Part shown: positions 8,906 through 45,036 of the stretch, piece after piece
Layout of the letters: every line of letters begins with the position of its first letter
How positions within the stretch are numbered: position 1 is the stretch's first letter
DNA from: a virus
IMG/VR virus record: IMGVR_UViG_3300009154_000046
Span: 1-64,000 of that record
Length of the DNA stretch: 64,000 bases
Direction: 5' to 3' (one strand)
Translations under genes and position numbers: made by a program
The notes under the pieces: generated by a model
Told to the model about the DNA's origin: nothing
The model's input: the letters and a program-made list of their open reading frames with translations, nothing else
Databases searched by the model: none

Positions 8906-10099
8906 TTAAAGTTTATCTAAATTTATTATTATATTGTTTTTATTTTCGTATAAAGCACCATAAATAATTCTCATATCTTTTTTATGGTTTTTTAAAATTG
9001 TTTGTAGTCCAACTGTATGACCCGCTGCTCCAACTTTCTTCCAATCTTCCTTCATCAAATTGGTAAAACAAACAAACCATCTGTCCATATCTTCATTGTA
9101 GGTTACTAATATATATTTACCTTCACGTATACCTTGGCCACCTTGCCATTGTGTTTGAGTTCCTTTGTAAGTAGCTACTTTAATCTCAACCCTATCATCT
9201 ATATCTTTATGGAATATATCCGGATCAGACCAGTGACCTTTCGCCGTAACAACATCATGCCCATCGGCTCGTAACAGAGCGCCACCTATTGTCATAATAG
9301 TATCAGATACAATCCCTGCTATCCTAGCTGGTTCAAAATCATATAAAGGATTATAATCTTCATCGCCAATCTTTACTTCTAATCCATACATTCTATTCAT
9401 ATAGCTAGATGTCCTTGCCATTAGTTTTTTAAATAAAGTATCGGTATATATACCATCCCAATCATAGGTTAAATTTTGAGATGTTTTTACCTTCACACCA
9501 GTCTTACCAGTTGCCTCATCATAGGCAGCTTTTATAGTAATATCATCATCATCAATAAGTTTAAGCAATGATGGCTTCTCTATAAGAATTGTATTTAATT
9601 TATCCAAAGTAGCCCTTGTTGTTTCCAATCTTTTTATATGTGCATTTTGAATTGAATTAGGACGCTTTGTTCCAAACTCTATTTCATACGCATCATTCAT
9701 CTTATTAAACTCGTTCAATTTAATTGACCAAGTCATTTTACGATAAAGATTTGTACTCGTTATTGTGGTATATGTCTGATATGGTTTATTAGGATCGGGG
9801 TATGGCTCATCGGAATATTCTACCCATAATAACTCAACATCGGCCCTCGGAGCAGCGGCAAGACGTGTATTACCGGCTTCGACTAATCCATCTTTCCAAA
9901 TCAATACAGGTTGCTGATTTGGACATAGCTTTTTAGAAACTCTTTTACGGTATGTATCTGCTATTTCTTGAATCTTACTTCTTTCTTCGTTTGTATCAGC
10001 ATAGACTACGGGATTGAATGGGTTTATTTTCAAATCCTTTACATAGGCGTATCTTTTGCCGCTAATGATTTCTAATTTAATTGTTTTACCTTTGCTCAT
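8906..10099 (-). CDS. ParB-like domain fused to PD-(D/E)XK-like nuclease domain
   Basis: 397 residues. Residues ~20-95 resemble a ParB/sulfiredoxin-like domain (DLKINPFNPVVYAD, QQPVLIWKDGLVEAGNTRLAAA). Residues ~290-340 hold a nuclease-like core, GHWSDPDIFHKDI followed by VEIKVATYKGTQTQWQGGQ, matching the D...(E)xK arrangement of restriction-type endonucleases. Between them is a helical linker. Such architecture suggests a sequence-directed DNA-cleaving or DNA-modification-sensing enzyme. Domain calls are from motifs only; the C-terminal one is the less certain. Confidence 0.65.
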   Translation of the reverse strand: MSKGKTIKLEIISGKRYAYVKDLKINPFNPVVYADTNEERSKIQEIADTYRKRVSKKLCPNQQPVLIWKDGLVEAGNTRLAAAPRADVELLWVEYSDEPYPDPNKPYQTYTTITSTNLYRKMTWSIKLNEFNKMNDAYEIEFGTKRPNSIQNAHIKRLETTRATLDKLNTILIEKPSLLKLIDDDDITIKAAYDEATGKTGVKVKTSQNLTYDWDGIYTDTLFKKLMARTSSYMNRMYGLEVKIGDEDYNPLYDFEPARIAGIVSDTIMTIGGALLRADGHDVVTAKGHWSDPDIFHKDIDDRVEIKVATYKGTQTQWQGGQGIREGKYILVTYNEDMDRWFVCFTNLMKEDWKKVGAAGHTVGLQTILKNHKKDMRIIYGALYENKNNIIINLDKL

Positions 10100-26228: not shown

Positions 26229-27653
26229 CTACCAAGTAATAGTGGTGCTATCAACTGAATCATCAGTAACTTCATTGAATAACTTACTTTCATCTTCGGT
26301 TGATTTGTTGAACTTTTGTATCAACTGCTTCATAAACACTCTTTCACTATCCAGTCCACCATCATTACTGAAATATGGTAGGATTGCTATTTCGGCCGCC
26401 TCCATTAAGGTAAACCCATCATAGATAAGTCCGGCTGCTTCAACATTCACACGCGTTGAAACGATTGTTGAAATTTTACTAGCGTCCGTTTTGATTAACT
26501 GACGAGTAGTATCGGCGATTTCAGCCAAAGCGTTCAATGAATAATCATCAGCTTCAGCGAATTTGTATTTCAACAATTCGTATTCACTTTGCTTATCTAA
26601 TAAATCCATTTCAATTTGAACAAATCTGTCCATAATAGCCCTATCCATTATACGAGTCGATGTGTACTCATTACCGATATTAGCCGTAGCGATAAAGGTA
26701 ACACCACTGGCAACTTTTACGATTGGTGAACCTTCGGCCTCATCTAATCTTAGGTATCTTTGACCAGCATCTAACACAGTCATTAAGATATTCCAAGCTT
26801 CTGGGTGAGAACGAGAAATTTCATCCAATAAGATAATAGCGTTTGGCGTTTTGATAGCCTTAACGAAAGCCGATTCACTAAAGAATGTACCACTCTCTTT
26901 ATTAAAGTGCGTATTACCTATTAGGGTTGCTCGGGGGTCTTGCGTTGCACCTAAGTTGAAATAGAAGTCAGGACGTTTCAATGAACGAACAAGCGATTGA
27001 GCGGCAAGTGTCTTACCACAACCAGTCGGTCCGGTCATCATTATATTTTTACCACGTACCGCTGAACGTAACAAATACTTCCATTTCAAATCTTCAATGA
27101 ATAACCCAGTCGGTTTAAGCGATACACCATTATCATGTATAAATGCTTTAAGTGCATCGTGCGTTTCAAATGCTTCACTTACCGAGTCACAAGCATTTTC
27201 TTCAATAATGTTAGCAATCTTTTTGAACTCGTCCATTTCAACCAATTTGTAAGTAACACTACCAGTCTTACCTACATACCCACGGATTGCTTTGTTTTCA
27301 GCCTCCGCCTGTTTGATACGGCTACGGCTGATACCATTTACCGAAGTTACTGGCTTATTATCAGTAGTCATAAGAGCGAATGTTTTACCTACTAATATTG
27401 GTTTGTAAATTTCATTCGTAAACCCTACAACAATATCGGATTTTTTTGTTGTTACTCTTTTTACCGTAGGTTTTTTTGTTGCTACTTTCTTAGCTACTAC
27501 CGTTCTCTTTACGGTTGTGTTTTTCTTAGCTACTACTTTTTTCTTAGCTACTGGTGTACGTTTAGCCGTCGCTGATACTTTACTCATACTTTTTGTTTTA
27601 GATTTTAGTGTTGAAGATTTATTTACTTTGTTTGTTACTTTCTTAATAGCCAT
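26229..27653 (-). CDS. MoxR/CobS-like AAA+ ATPase with Lys-rich N-terminal tail
   Basis: 474 residues. Walker A GPTGCGKTLAA (~209), Walker B ILLDEISRSHPEAWN (~273), sensor 1 FIATANIGNEY (~323) and the arginine-finger region RIMDRAIMDRF (~334) define a MoxR-type AAA+ protein, usually a chaperone that works with a VWA partner; one is encoded immediately upstream (27955-30267). The first ~75 residues are a histone-like Lys/Ala/Thr/Val-rich tail (AKKKVVAKKNTTVKRT), unusual for the family and likely to bind nucleic acid. Transcribed from the promoter at 27809-27840. Confidence 0.88.
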   Translation of the reverse strand: MAIKKVTNKVNKSSTLKSKTKSMSKVSATAKRTPVAKKKVVAKKNTTVKRTVVAKKVATKKPTVKRVTTKKSDIVVGFTNEIYKPILVGKTFALMTTDNKPVTSVNGISRSRIKQAEAENKAIRGYVGKTGSVTYKLVEMDEFKKIANIIEENACDSVSEAFETHDALKAFIHDNGVSLKPTGLFIEDLKWKYLLRSAVRGKNIMMTGPTGCGKTLAAQSLVRSLKRPDFYFNLGATQDPRATLIGNTHFNKESGTFFSESAFVKAIKTPNAIILLDEISRSHPEAWNILMTVLDAGQRYLRLDEAEGSPIVKVASGVTFIATANIGNEYTSTRIMDRAIMDRFVQIEMDLLDKQSEYELLKYKFAEADDYSLNALAEIADTTRQLIKTDASKISTIVSTRVNVEAAGLIYDGFTLMEAAEIAILPYFSNDGGLDSERVFMKQLIQKFNKSTEDESKLFNEVTDDSVDSTTITW

Positions 27654-27954: not shown

Positions 27955-30267
27955 TTAGTCCCTATTACTTTTTTGTAAAAATAGGTCATTCATTGATTTA
28001 GCAACTTGCATTATATTTTCAACATTTACATACTTAGCACTTTTATCATACGATTTTTGGAATGTTCGCCAGTCTTGTGTATTTTCAAAACTAGATTCAC
28101 TTTTTTCAGTAATGAAGTAGGATAACACATTTATACCACTCTCACGCATTTTTTTCACTTGCTTATTTGTATGAAGGGCGGCCGATTCACCACCATAAGT
28201 AATATTATCAGTTTTTGATATGATACTATAACAAGGTTGCCCATCTGAGAAGTTTAAGAAATAAGAGTCAACTGAATTATCAGCCGGTATCAAATACTTT
28301 TGGATTGCTTCAAAACATAAACCTTCCGGTGTTGTATTACTACAATCCAATATAGTCATATACTTAGCGAATTGTTTGAATGAATCTCTACGAGAGTCGT
28401 GTATCAAACAAATATAAGGTAACGATTTACCACCACTACTACTACAATCAGTTGAACGTATTGAAACCTGAACATTTAAGTTACGAGCCATCTCACACGC
28501 CTTAACTATTGCTACTACAGAGGTAATTGTTTTTCTTAACTTGCTACCACCCATTGAGCCCGAATAATCAAGAGATATATGTAGGTTTGCTTTCTTATAC
28601 TGGTCGATTTCGTTTGTATAGAATACACCGTCATTATCATACCCAAGCGAAGCAATCATTCTCTTATCAATTCTACCTTTTTTCAAGCGGCTGAATACCG
28701 TTTCACGACTCTCACTTCTTATTTGTAATTTCTTACCTAACAATTTACCCAATGTTATACCACGATTAACTTCTTCTTCTGCCCATGCTTTAACTACCGC
28801 ATCCTTTCCCCATCCGCTAGTATGTGAGAATGGAAAGTCTTTGGATTGAATTAGATTATTAGTCAACTTTTTAACTACGATACAATCAACACCTTGCGAT
28901 ATTCTACCATAGCCGGTTTCCATACCACTACCTACACGAACCAATTCAGTTTCACTTTCAGCAATATCTTTAAGTTTGTTAGAATCTGCGGTACTCAAAG
29001 TTTTTTTCTTTATGTTACCATTAAGGAAGTCCTTTTGTTTTTGGAATTTCTTACTTAGAATATCTGATACTTTCTTACTTAGTGCATTATCCGATGAGTT
29101 TGATTTCTTACCGTCAGTAGAAGTAGCATCGGCATCCATACCACTACCACCTGCCTCATTATCCATATCACCACTCATACCGTCTGGTGCCTTACCATTA
29201 CCGGCTGTATTTTCCTCAGCTTCATCATTTCCACCATTAGCCCCATTACCCTGCGCCGATTGTGGCATCTGACCTCCGTTTTTATCCATTACATTTGTAA
29301 GGATGATTTCCATAATATCAATCGCTAAATTCAAAGAATCAGTTGAACTATTTAATCGGCCGATATTTTTCAAATCTAATAAACGATAAATGGCTCTCAA
29401 TCCTTTCAATTTTGATAAGTCGGTATTTTCATTCATTAGGTTAATGATACGAAACATATACGAATCTATCGTTTCATCGGTGAAATCATCAGAAGCTATA
29501 CCTTTTGTTACACTCTTATCGTTAAAGTAGTAATCATACATCGAAGTATAGTAATCTCTATAACCAGGAGCCGATTTGAATATATACATATCAATACGTC
29601 TATCCTCAATCCAATTTGTTAAACCACTAATAGTATTAGTAATTTGTTCCGTTAAAATACCCTTACTACCAATCTTACCATTGGAAAGGAATATCTCATT
29701 TAATTGATTACGATACGCCGGATATTGCTTAATAACCTCTAGTATAGAAGCATCTAACGAATATGGAATATTAGGGTATGTTGGTGGTAGGTTATTTTCA
29801 ATGTCCTGAGCGTTTGTATGCTCAAACCTCGAAACATCCCATTTATACGAATCACTACAATTAGACATTGCGTATAATAATTTAAAATCTGATAAGATAA
29901 TATGCGAGCCCTCATGCAATGCCAATCCAACCGATACATCAAAGTTATCGTCAACATCGGCTGATAATATCACTTTCTCACCATCGGTTTTACTATCACT
30001 TTTTGTAGCAAAGGTAACCGGAACCGATTTAGTTGTTACGATTTGTACGAAATTGGCGATTGCTCTACGAACTGATGCCATTTTATATAAATCATTAGAA
30101 CGTTTATACGCATTCAATTCATCGGTATTATATGAACTATACTTATCAAGATATTCATACTTAGTATCATAATCATCATACCAAAATGAAGATACTGATT
30201 TTTTACTGCCTGTATAGCCGGTATTACCACTACTATACTTACTAACGTTTTTACTACTTTTACTCAT
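27955..30267 (-). CDS. VWA-domain protein (CobT-like partner of AAA+ ATPase)
   Basis: 770 residues. The MIDAS motif is HISLDYSGSMGGS near residue 570, with Thr and Asp ligands expected downstream (DCSNTTPEG; NFSDGQ). N-terminal ~300 residues hold a helical metallopeptidase-like region containing LALHEGSHIILSDF (HExxH near residue 118), similar to VWA partners of MoxR proteins. A linker (~340-395) is Gly/Asn/Asp/Ser-rich. Together with the ATPase it probably forms a remodelling complex. Own promoter and hairpin upstream. Confidence 0.85.
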   Translation of the reverse strand: MSKSSKNVSKYSSGNTGYTGSKKSVSSFWYDDYDTKYEYLDKYSSYNTDELNAYKRSNDLYKMASVRRAIANFVQIVTTKSVPVTFATKSDSKTDGEKVILSADVDDNFDVSVGLALHEGSHIILSDFKLLYAMSNCSDSYKWDVSRFEHTNAQDIENNLPPTYPNIPYSLDASILEVIKQYPAYRNQLNEIFLSNGKIGSKGILTEQITNTISGLTNWIEDRRIDMYIFKSAPGYRDYYTSMYDYYFNDKSVTKGIASDDFTDETIDSYMFRIINLMNENTDLSKLKGLRAIYRLLDLKNIGRLNSSTDSLNLAIDIMEIILTNVMDKNGGQMPQSAQGNGANGGNDEAEENTAGNGKAPDGMSGDMDNEAGGSGMDADATSTDGKKSNSSDNALSKKVSDILSKKFQKQKDFLNGNIKKKTLSTADSNKLKDIAESETELVRVGSGMETGYGRISQGVDCIVVKKLTNNLIQSKDFPFSHTSGWGKDAVVKAWAEEEVNRGITLGKLLGKKLQIRSESRETVFSRLKKGRIDKRMIASLGYDNDGVFYTNEIDQYKKANLHISLDYSGSMGGSKLRKTITSVVAIVKACEMARNLNVQVSIRSTDCSSSGGKSLPYICLIHDSRRDSFKQFAKYMTILDCSNTTPEGLCFEAIQKYLIPADNSVDSYFLNFSDGQPCYSIISKTDNITYGGESAALHTNKQVKKMRESGINVLSYFITEKSESSFENTQDWRTFQKSYDKSAKYVNVENIMQVAKSMNDLFLQKSNRD

Positions 30268-32872: not shown

Positions 32873-33271
32873 TTATAAATTCTCTTTAATGTATTTATGT
32901 ACCTTTGCCATATTCTTATCACACTCATAATCATATCCACCCGTACTAAATAGTTTGCCTTTACCCTCGTACATTCTATACCACAATGCTTGTCTTTCAG
33001 ATTTTTCCAACCTAAACTGGCCTTCAAATCCATAGCACGAACAATGTGAGCCATGCATTTCATATAATTTACCTTTATTATCTTTGAATAAAAAGAATGA
33101 AGTGGAATCACATCCCCACGACCCTACTGATTCGTATGCCACTAAAATTTCTAAATCTTGCAAAGCCTTTGTTATTTCATCAACATCCACACCTTCACCG
33201 GAGTATTTTAATTCCAAATGCTGCTTGATTTGTAATTCAGTCATTGCTTTTAAATCTTCTAATGCTAACAT
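32873..33271 (-). CDS. Conserved phage hypothetical protein
   Basis: 132 residues. The segment YESVGSWGCDSTSFFLFKD...GKLYEMHGSHCSCYGFEGQ is a pattern I recognise in hypothetical proteins of large phages; the Cys/His cluster (GSHCSCYG) may bind metal. It sits between tRNA genes. Confidence 0.65.
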   Translation of the reverse strand: MLALEDLKAMTELQIKQHLELKYSGEGVDVDEITKALQDLEILVAYESVGSWGCDSTSFFLFKDNKGKLYEMHGSHCSCYGFEGQFRLEKSERQALWYRMYEGKGKLFSTGGYDYECDKNMAKVHKYIKENL

Positions 33272-33290: not shown

Positions 33291-33321
33291 CAAAAAACCC
33301 CAAACTCATGTTCGGGGGGTT
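33291..33321 (-). terminator. Intrinsic terminator after tRNA-Gly
   Basis: AACCCC...GGGGTT hairpin (33296-33321) followed by TTTTTT on the transcribed strand. Ends the transcript carrying the large RNA and tRNA-Gly. Confidence 0.75.
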
Positions 33322-33333
33322 CTTCATATTATG

Positions 33334-33404
33334 AGCGGGACCAAAGAATCGAACTTCATCCTGCAGCCTGGAGGGCTGCTGTGCTACCATTACACTAATT
33401 CCGC
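33334..33404 (-). tRNA. tRNA-Gly (TCC) with C33
   Basis: GCGGAAT/GTCCCGC acceptor (one A-C mismatch), D arm GTG TAATGGTAG CAC, anticodon stem GCAGC/GCTGC with loop CCTCCAG and T arm TGAAG TTCGATT CTTTG. The body matches bacterial tRNA-Gly(UCC), but position 33 is C, not the near-universal U. It may still decode GGA, or serve another purpose. Confidence 0.75.
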
Positions 33405-33409
33405 TTATA

Positions 33410-34298
33410 AACCATGAGATTATTGGTTTGGGTGTACCATCTTTGGAAGGGTTATTGTTTTCCTTCGTATCCACTTCCTTTTGAGAAGTATCAGTACAGT
33501 GTCGGTCCGTAATGCGAACCACTCATAAAGTCATAAACTACTCTCTAACTAATCTGCTTCTTCAAGTCTGCCGACCTGATTAACACTTGCGGCGTTAGAA
33601 GTTTTTCATTAGAATCACAGACCACTTGCGGTGGTATCGTGGCAACGAACAACTCGTTACTATGTAGACACCTTTCGTCTATAACTGGCAAACACTTTTG
33701 CTTTATGATTATTTTTTGAATAAAAAAAAGTTGTTGTGGTTTGTAGATTGATTCAGGTAGCGGTCTGCCACTAGCTCTCTCACCTTTTGAGTCAGAGAAT
33801 ACTAAACTACCCGATGCAATATCCCTATTGCCATATTTTGAGTCATCTTCATACAAATATGTTGGTACATAAAATGTAAGGATAGTAACAGCACCACCTG
33901 TACACAGTCTTATCTAGCGTCCTTTCGGATAGATTGATGTTAAGACCACTCTGATATTGAGTAACGAAATGATACGAAGGGATTAAGTTCGTATTTCTCA
34001 CATATACTCTATGAGTTATTCCTATTGCTCTTCCGAGCTCAATTAGAGTATCTACTTACCCTAATCATTCAAACTTTTCTGTTACAGTGTCACCCTCACA
34101 TACAGAGCTCAAACAGTATCTCACTTGTCTACATGCGTTCCAACCTTACAGGGTTGAAACTGCAGAATGCTTAACCAAACATTCCACTTTATCCTACTTT
34201 CGTAGTTTATCTAAAACCGAGCATAGACACCCGTCGTTAATTGTGTAAGACGAACTTACTATATTAACAATATCTTTATAATCAAAGAACTTTCTTTG
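33410..34298 (-). ncRNA. Candidate large ornate RNA (GOLLD/ROOL-like)
   Basis: About 0.9 kb between promoter 34305-34336 and tRNA-Gly. It is full of local hairpins on the minus strand, many with GNRA loops: CTAC GAAA GTAG (34194-34205), GCTC GGAA GAGC (34027-34038) inside ATACTCT/AGAGTAT, GTCTTA...TCC GAAA GGA...TAAGAC (33907-33952), ATACGAA/TTCGTAT (33972-33994), ACCAC CGCAA GTGGT (33621-33635), AACGC CGCAA GTGTT (33582-33596), CAACC/GGTTG (34141-34156), TAGAC/GTCTA (33663-33681). Large ornate RNAs next to tRNAs are known from phages; assignment to a named class is not possible by eye. Confidence 0.6.
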
Positions 34299-34304
34299 TT
34301 TAAT

Positions 34305-34336
34305 TAAAGATACGATAAATTTTTCATTCTACCAAA
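34305..34336 (-). promoter_or_regulatory. Promoter of the large RNA
   Basis: TATCTTTA at 34312-34305, TTTGG at 34336, spacer 20 nt. Predicted start near 34298, just before a CAAAGAA/TTCTTTG hairpin. Confidence 0.75.
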
Positions 34337-34357
34337 TCTTTTTTAATCTTTTTTTTT

Positions 34358-34470
34358 AAACTGATTAATGATAACCGGCTTTATAGTATCGTTTCACTCT
34401 CAAGATACTAATGTTTATAGAGTCACACATTCGGTTTTATTAGATGTTGGCTTCAACCATTCATCAGTTT
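34358..34470 (-). ncRNA. Independently promoted ~113-nt structured RNA
   Basis: The predicted transcription start (~34470) coincides with the first base of a closing helix AAACTGAT/ATCAGTTT that spans 34470 to 34358. Inside are AACCG/CGGTT and a 7-bp TAGTATC/GATACTA hairpin. No ORF. A compact, closed RNA with its own promoter; class unknown to me. Confidence 0.6.
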
Positions 34471-34476
34471 GTTTGT

Positions 34477-34508
34477 TAAAGATACGATAAATTTTTTAAT
34501 CTACCAAA
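34477..34508 (-). promoter_or_regulatory. Promoter of the 113-nt RNA
   Basis: TATCTTTA at 34484-34477, TTTGG at 34508, spacer 20 nt; nearly identical in sequence to the promoters at 34305 and 34754. Confidence 0.75.
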
Positions 34509-34515
34509 TCTTTTT

Positions 34516-34731
34516 TTAAATTGTTTTTGTATTCGGTATATCCGTAGTATATGTAGATCCGCCAGCTATTGTTCTATTGCCTGTACCTGTATATGTAAAC
34601 ATTGTAGGCTTTATACCATCCTCAACAATATCATCTAATACCTTCGTAAGTTCATTTTTAACTTTTAAAGGTAACTCATTACTACCAGCTATATAACCTC
34701 TTAACCAATTTGTAAAATCTTTTGATGTCAT
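34516..34731 (-). CDS. Small hypothetical protein
   Basis: 71 residues: helical first half (KDFTNWLRGYIAGSNELPLKV, the pattern FxxWLxGF common in small phage proteins), then a Thr/Gly-rich tail. It has its own promoter 16 bp upstream of the ATG and lies between RNA genes. Confidence 0.65.
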   Translation of the reverse strand: MTSKDFTNWLRGYIAGSNELPLKVKNELTKVLDDIVEDGIKPTMFTYTGTGNRTIAGGSTYTTDIPNTKTI

Positions 34732-34753: not shown

Positions 34754-34785
34754 TAAAGATACGATAAATTTTTCATTCTACCAAA
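34754..34785 (-). promoter_or_regulatory. Promoter of 34516-34731 gene
   Basis: TATCTTTA at 34761-34754, TTTGG at 34785, spacer 20 nt. Confidence 0.75.
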
Positions 34786-35426: not shown

Positions 35427-35554
35427 AGTCAGTACAGGATTTGAACCTGTATGAGTTTTGCTTGCGCCTACATGACTTTAACTCAAAAAGTTCTCTTCTT
35501 ATTTAATGATGGAAGGTCACCATCGTTTGCGTCTACCAATTCCGCCAACTGACT
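35427..35554 (-). tRNA. tRNA-Leu-like RNA 3 with ~40-nt expanded middle
   Basis: 128 nt. Acceptor AGTCAGT/ACTGACT, Leu-type D arm GCGGAATTGGTAGACGC and T arm ACAGG TTCAAAT CCTGT are all intact. Where an anticodon arm is expected there is GATGG TGACCTT CCATC (loop lacks U33), followed by a long arm GAGTT...AACTC holding a GC-GCAA-GC hairpin. No Leu anticodon can be placed. It immediately precedes the tmRNA in the same direction. Confidence 0.6.

Positions 35555-43416: not shown

Positions 43417-45036
<1,620 letters not shown>

Follow-up and report, generated by a model that had tools for sequence, protein, structure and literature searches.

The window analysed here, a stretch of 64,000 nt forming part of a 75,075-base IMG/VR virus record (IMGVR_UViG_3300009154_000046), carries on its minus strand a group of RNA genes. 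In the direction of transcription these are a phage tmRNA (34863-35413), a small structured RNA of 116 nt (34357-34472), a GOLLD RNA of about 890 nt (33411-34300), a tRNA-Gly(UCC) (33333-33404; detected by ARAGORN and Rfam, with the same layout in relatives) and a strong intrinsic terminator (33292-33317), with a tRNA-Glu further downstream. A 71-aa ORF (34516-34731) lies between the tmRNA and the small RNA and has its own promoter (34785-34754). The 132-aa protein encoded between tRNA-Glu and tRNA-Gly (32873-33271, minus strand) matches phrog_21421 (E 3.8e-14); the integrase label of this PHROG is doubtful, the protein being short for an integrase. Also on the minus strand are genes for a GroEL (43417-45033; phrog_5725, 589 bits) and for a MoxR/CobS-like ATPase and CobT-like protein pair (26229-27653 and 27955-30267).

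The initial annotation had proposed a giant RNA of the GOLLD or ROOL type beside phage tRNAs, together with a cmscan check of the minus strand against the GOLLD, ROOL and HEARO models. This search bore the proposal out: the Rfam GOLLD model RF02032 matches 33411-33814 with 299.8 bits (E 8.7e-85), about twice the gathering score of 150 bits and over the complete model (positions 1-416), and neither ROOL nor HEARO has an Rfam match in the window, at the gathering threshold or at E up to 1. The model describes the conserved 3' half of GOLLD only, and its match, together with covariation, defines the 3' domain (33411-33814). The 5' domain (33815-34300), the variable half in this family, is recognized by blastn homology to most IMG/VR GOLLD loci and by covarying helices; its outer end is placed according to the promoter. 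The total length falls within the range of about 800-900 nt, and both the phage origin (a virus record) and the neighbouring tRNA-Gly and tRNA-Glu agree with what is typical of GOLLD.

A promoter of its own, as had been claimed for this RNA, is indeed present. Three near-identical TTTG-N20-TATCTTTA sites are found on the minus strand, at 34785, 34508 and 34336, the second (34477-34508) preceding the small RNA and the third (34305-34336) GOLLD, whose transcription would be expected to start near 34300. They differ from the Bacteroidota sigma-A consensus TAnnTTTG (PMC9723704) only in ending with A in place of G. Of 59 relatives, 46 have a similar site ahead of GOLLD, and TAnnTTT followed by A or G is eleven-fold enriched there (2.68 vs 0.24 per kb). 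The phage GroEL shows moderate similarity to those of many phages, Bacteroides and Flavobacterium phages included. A Bacteroidota host, as originally suggested, is therefore likely, judging from the promoter type and from this weak phage homology.

Exact-pattern scans of IMG/VR combined with a profile search revealed about 120 GOLLD loci in public virus contigs. Of the loci also run against Rfam's own model, most were confirmed, with scores of up to 332 bits; the 48 places returned by a pattern scan of genome contigs contained no GOLLD according to the profile. The nearest relatives of the window RNA are L006 (81% identity over the 3' domain), L005, L003, L098 and L090, all of which align over both domains, and blastn demonstrated that the checked loci share the 5' half as well. 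Many loci whose 5' half is otherwise little alike carry an identical 26-nt element with a GAAA-capped hairpin (34210-34185). The term "new variant" used in the initial annotation was thus too strong, since IMG/VR contains many close GOLLDs that share this 5' half. No close GOLLD of the window type was found among cultured phage records, nor was a match for L098; the only matches to the window type (65-69% identity) are LR756502.1 and LR745206.1, both from uncultured huge phages.

The terminator that had been placed at the far end of this RNA is located elsewhere: GOLLD ends at 33411 and tRNA-Gly starts at 33404, 6 nt away, with no terminator between them in the window, and the terminator lies beyond the tRNA (33317-33298). 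GOLLD and tRNA-Gly are therefore probably co-transcribed, and RNase P, for which the tRNA is the proposed signal, probably makes the GOLLD 3' end. Wherever the flank is readable, almost every listed locus of the clade and the outgroup contains a tRNA or tRNA-like sequence directly after GOLLD (L227 is the clear exception, with neither), and in the window clade it mostly begins no more than about 20 nt from the end of GOLLD. Relatives of this clade have a tRNA-Gly at this place, or, in five loci (L234, L327, L237, L239 and L252), a tRNA-Gly-like RNA whose T arm is unusual, or, in six others (L230, L279, L295, L336, L328 and L244) a 40-43-nt element with an acceptor and a T-type arm and no anticodon arm. 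The more distant GOLLDs have tRNA-Met, tRNA-Phe or tRNA-like hairpins at their end, the hairpins of L097, L157 and L122 being likewise 40-43-nt elements directly downstream. Retention of the part recognized by RNase P, with loss of the decoding part, suggests, from anatomy, that the shrunken tRNA-like RNA is a processing signal. In L005, the tRNA-Gly directly after GOLLD (about 9860-9960) carries a GC-rich insertion of about 20 nt in its D loop.

We consider it rather unlikely that the 3' end of this GOLLD is formed independently of the tRNA, with tRNA-Gly a mere neighbour belonging to a tRNA array. Such arrays are common around GOLLD, and the finder used for tRNA-like sequences also matches 4-5% of control stretches, a figure inflated by the downstream tRNA arrays that the controls include. 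In another large group of GOLLDs (e.g. L149), a terminator-like hairpin and no tRNA is found near the end, so RNase P processing is no family-wide rule. Against tRNA-independent formation of the end stand the close spacing of the tRNA or tRNA-like sequence in the window clade, the lack of a terminator between GOLLD and tRNA-Gly in the window, and the persistence of the 40-43-nt hairpin in the six loci named above as well as in L097.

Covariation in homologues, whose absence had been named beforehand as a refutation, proved to be strong in two alignments. When the Rfam structure of the 3' domain was imposed on 37 diverse sequences, 91% of the cells paired, 72 of the 93 pairs showed double changes, and covariation scored 0.518, as compared with 0.194 for shuffled data and at most 0.135 with slid partners. 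Mutual information calculated for 62 full-length sequences, with no structure supplied, recovered helices from 34233 to 33412, the 5' half included. The helices thus backed far outnumber the eight or more local ones originally noticed on one strand, and the minus strand of 33410-34298 folds with an MFE of -238.5 kcal/mol, vs -206.7 (sd 5.8) in 20 dinucleotide shuffles (z = -5.5). As regards the GNRA loops reported earlier, the GAAA-capped hairpins are real (CUAC-GAAA-GUAG at about 34204-34195 and UCC-GAAA-GGA at about 33930-33919, minus strand), but CGCAA is a loop of 5 nt and no GNRA tetraloop. Comparison with relatives establishes a two-domain fold, and sequence alone could hardly make the identity of this stretch as a genuine, complete GOLLD more secure.

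The coverage of only the 3' half by the Rfam model might leave room for an ornate RNA class unrelated to GOLLD (e.g. ROOL-like), a reading that is practically negligible given the full-length, high-scoring match to GOLLD, to the exclusion of every other giant-RNA family, and a 5' half that accompanies the GOLLD 3' half throughout the relatives. We give equally little credence to the view that the stretch codes for protein and that its helices arose by chance: the 103-aa ORF at 33545-33856 is open in the window only, the corresponding region of 15 relatives is interrupted by 3-14 stops per frame and by indels in 12-20 columns, substitutions relative to L006 are spread over the codon positions (12/22/17) without third-position bias, and covarying pairs run through the ORF, the lack of a conserved frame refuting this reading. 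Codon-type conservation of this ORF, which had been named as the result that would speak against an RNA, is thus absent.

The alignments also reveal contacts that are not nested within the helices: 33769-33764 with 33692-33687 (GGCAGA/UUUGCC) and 33671-33667 with 33503-33499. An AU-rich variable linker (33701-33740) ends in the conserved AAAGCAAAAGU, and positions 33701-33700 pair by covariation, likewise outside the nested helices, with 33629-33628 in the CGCAA loop (33626-33630) in 62 of 62 sequences (33700/33629: CG 40, GC 18, AT 4; 33701/33628: GC 59, TA 3). A further loop, matching L21a, switches between GC and CG among relatives. Cryo-EM has shown that env-38 GOLLD forms a hollow cage of 14 subunits, in which loop L20 kisses the joining segment J13/15 (bridge B7), a GC/CG switch in L21a corresponds to bridge B8, the linker is disordered inside the cage and the 5' domain forms the cap (PMC12286853). 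The loop-linker contact of the window RNA fits the description of B7, and the GC/CG loop that of B8/L21a, the assignment of L20 and L21a being our own mapping. Judging from the alignments, the contacts by which env-38 builds its cage of 14 subunits are conserved in the window GOLLD. The fit to both bridges supports, short of proof, its assembly into a cage, which is likely, the cage having been solved for another member of the family only.

The small RNA located between the tmRNA and GOLLD, with its own promoter, is not in Rfam 15, and neither the window copy nor those of ten further loci gave an Rfam match at E up to 1; it is described by our model R1 (71.7 bits). Its motif, GAAGCC-N-UAAUAAAACCG...AAAGCCGG, is also present in L003, L005, L008, L090 and L225-L342. 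At least 120 stretches in IMG/VR contain the pattern, a few being unrelated chance matches. In 64 aligned copies at least 28 positions are invariant (UGAAGCCA, UAAUAAAACCG, GU, AAAGCCGG), which for GAAGCC and UAAUAAAACCG is partly built in, as these letters were fixed in the collecting pattern; the other invariant positions and the stems were left free. The two stems covary (score 0.840 vs 0.216 shuffled), and all 16 pairs are changed on both sides somewhere. Among the matches listed (about 87 copies), 23 lie 550-1340 nt ahead of GOLLD, 6 come after tmRNA or tRNA-Met with no GOLLD in sight, and 44 are located just before a start codon, often that of a RecA-like gene, which we read from its sequence as uvsX; the RNA also occurs as a leader before other genes in different viruses. 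Among the GOLLD loci tested, it is confined to the window clade. It was not found in GenBank phages (blastn) or in 296 Flavobacteriales genomes (a weak test, with few candidates scored), and its letters were not found in the papers searched. Hammerhead and pistol ribozymes were dropped as candidates because of mismatches to their cores and the lack of an Rfam match. The invariant positions, covarying stems and two unrelated contexts make it a candidate new RNA class (riboswitch, ribozyme or protein-binding RNA).

The tmRNA (RF00023) scores 64.7 bits (gathering 47), contains an insertion of about 150 nt, and has tRNA-like ends and a tag frame, with a possible 25-aa tag, AEKTSRQEIGASIINMAFESFAVAA, read by eye; a quicker genome scan gave it only 23.9 bits and ARAGORN missed it. 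Tags are also present in relatives (e.g. DEKSTMTYDDLMAFVGMDYAVAA in L005). Beyond it, a tRNA-Leu-like sequence (35430-35548, minus strand) has a normal acceptor and T arm and an abnormal middle, possibly an intron or a sign of degeneration; a complete tRNA-Leu was not established, ARAGORN reporting one only at relaxed settings and with a 40-nt intron. An Rfam scan placed tmRNA and GOLLD on the same strand in all seven clade loci scanned, usually with a tRNA-Met after the tmRNA, which the window lacks. The recurring cassette reads tmRNA, (tRNA-Met), small structured RNA, GOLLD, and tRNA or tRNA-like RNA. The association of mycobacterial GOLLDs with tRNAs has been published (PMC6582537). We regard the cassette and the small RNA as the new parts, GOLLD being already known, and an earlier report of the adjacency of GOLLD and tmRNA is possible.

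Taking all this into account, we estimate a probability of about 85% for the following reading. Transcription of a complete GOLLD would start near 34300 at its own Bacteroidota-type promoter and continue past tRNA-Gly as far as the terminator (33298), after which RNase P would cut at the tRNA, releasing the mature tRNA and forming the GOLLD 3' end. Late in infection the RNA would assemble into a hollow cage, working alongside the translation genes of the phage (tmRNA, tRNAs). In the least certain step, it may hold or protect tRNAs or parts of the ribosome while the host is being shut down. The cassette, in which GOLLD repeatedly neighbours tmRNA and tRNAs and is followed by a tRNA that probably directs its processing, points to a link with translation in the infected cell. 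We incline, with less assurance, to a broader view in which GOLLD is a module of a conserved translation cassette, the anticodon-less hairpin acts purely as an RNase P signal, and the small RNA represents a new class that is also a uvsX leader. If so, a single RNA device is at work both inside the giant-RNA cassette and ahead of recombination genes.

Among known systems, ROOL resembles GOLLD in being phage-borne, located near tRNAs and cage-forming; it differs from the window RNA in its intertwined 5' and 3' regions, and no Rfam ROOL match is seen here. In MALAT1/mascRNA, a long non-coding RNA is followed by a tRNA-like element able to direct RNase P. The layout in the window is the same, although the context is that of a phage and the processing is a proposal. 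Another close counterpart is env-38 GOLLD, which shares with the window RNA the complete 3' domain, two domains of near 890 nt, the AU-rich linker, the loop-linker contact, the GC/CG loop switch, phage origin and the tRNA neighbourhood. Unlike it, the window RNA has a Bacteroidota-type promoter, is preceded by tmRNA and a small RNA absent from Rfam, is followed immediately by tRNA-Gly (tRNA-like RNA in relatives), and contains no tRNA. The relatives described here show that selection acts on the cage contacts in a group of phages remote from the lactobacilli, in which GOLLD was named.
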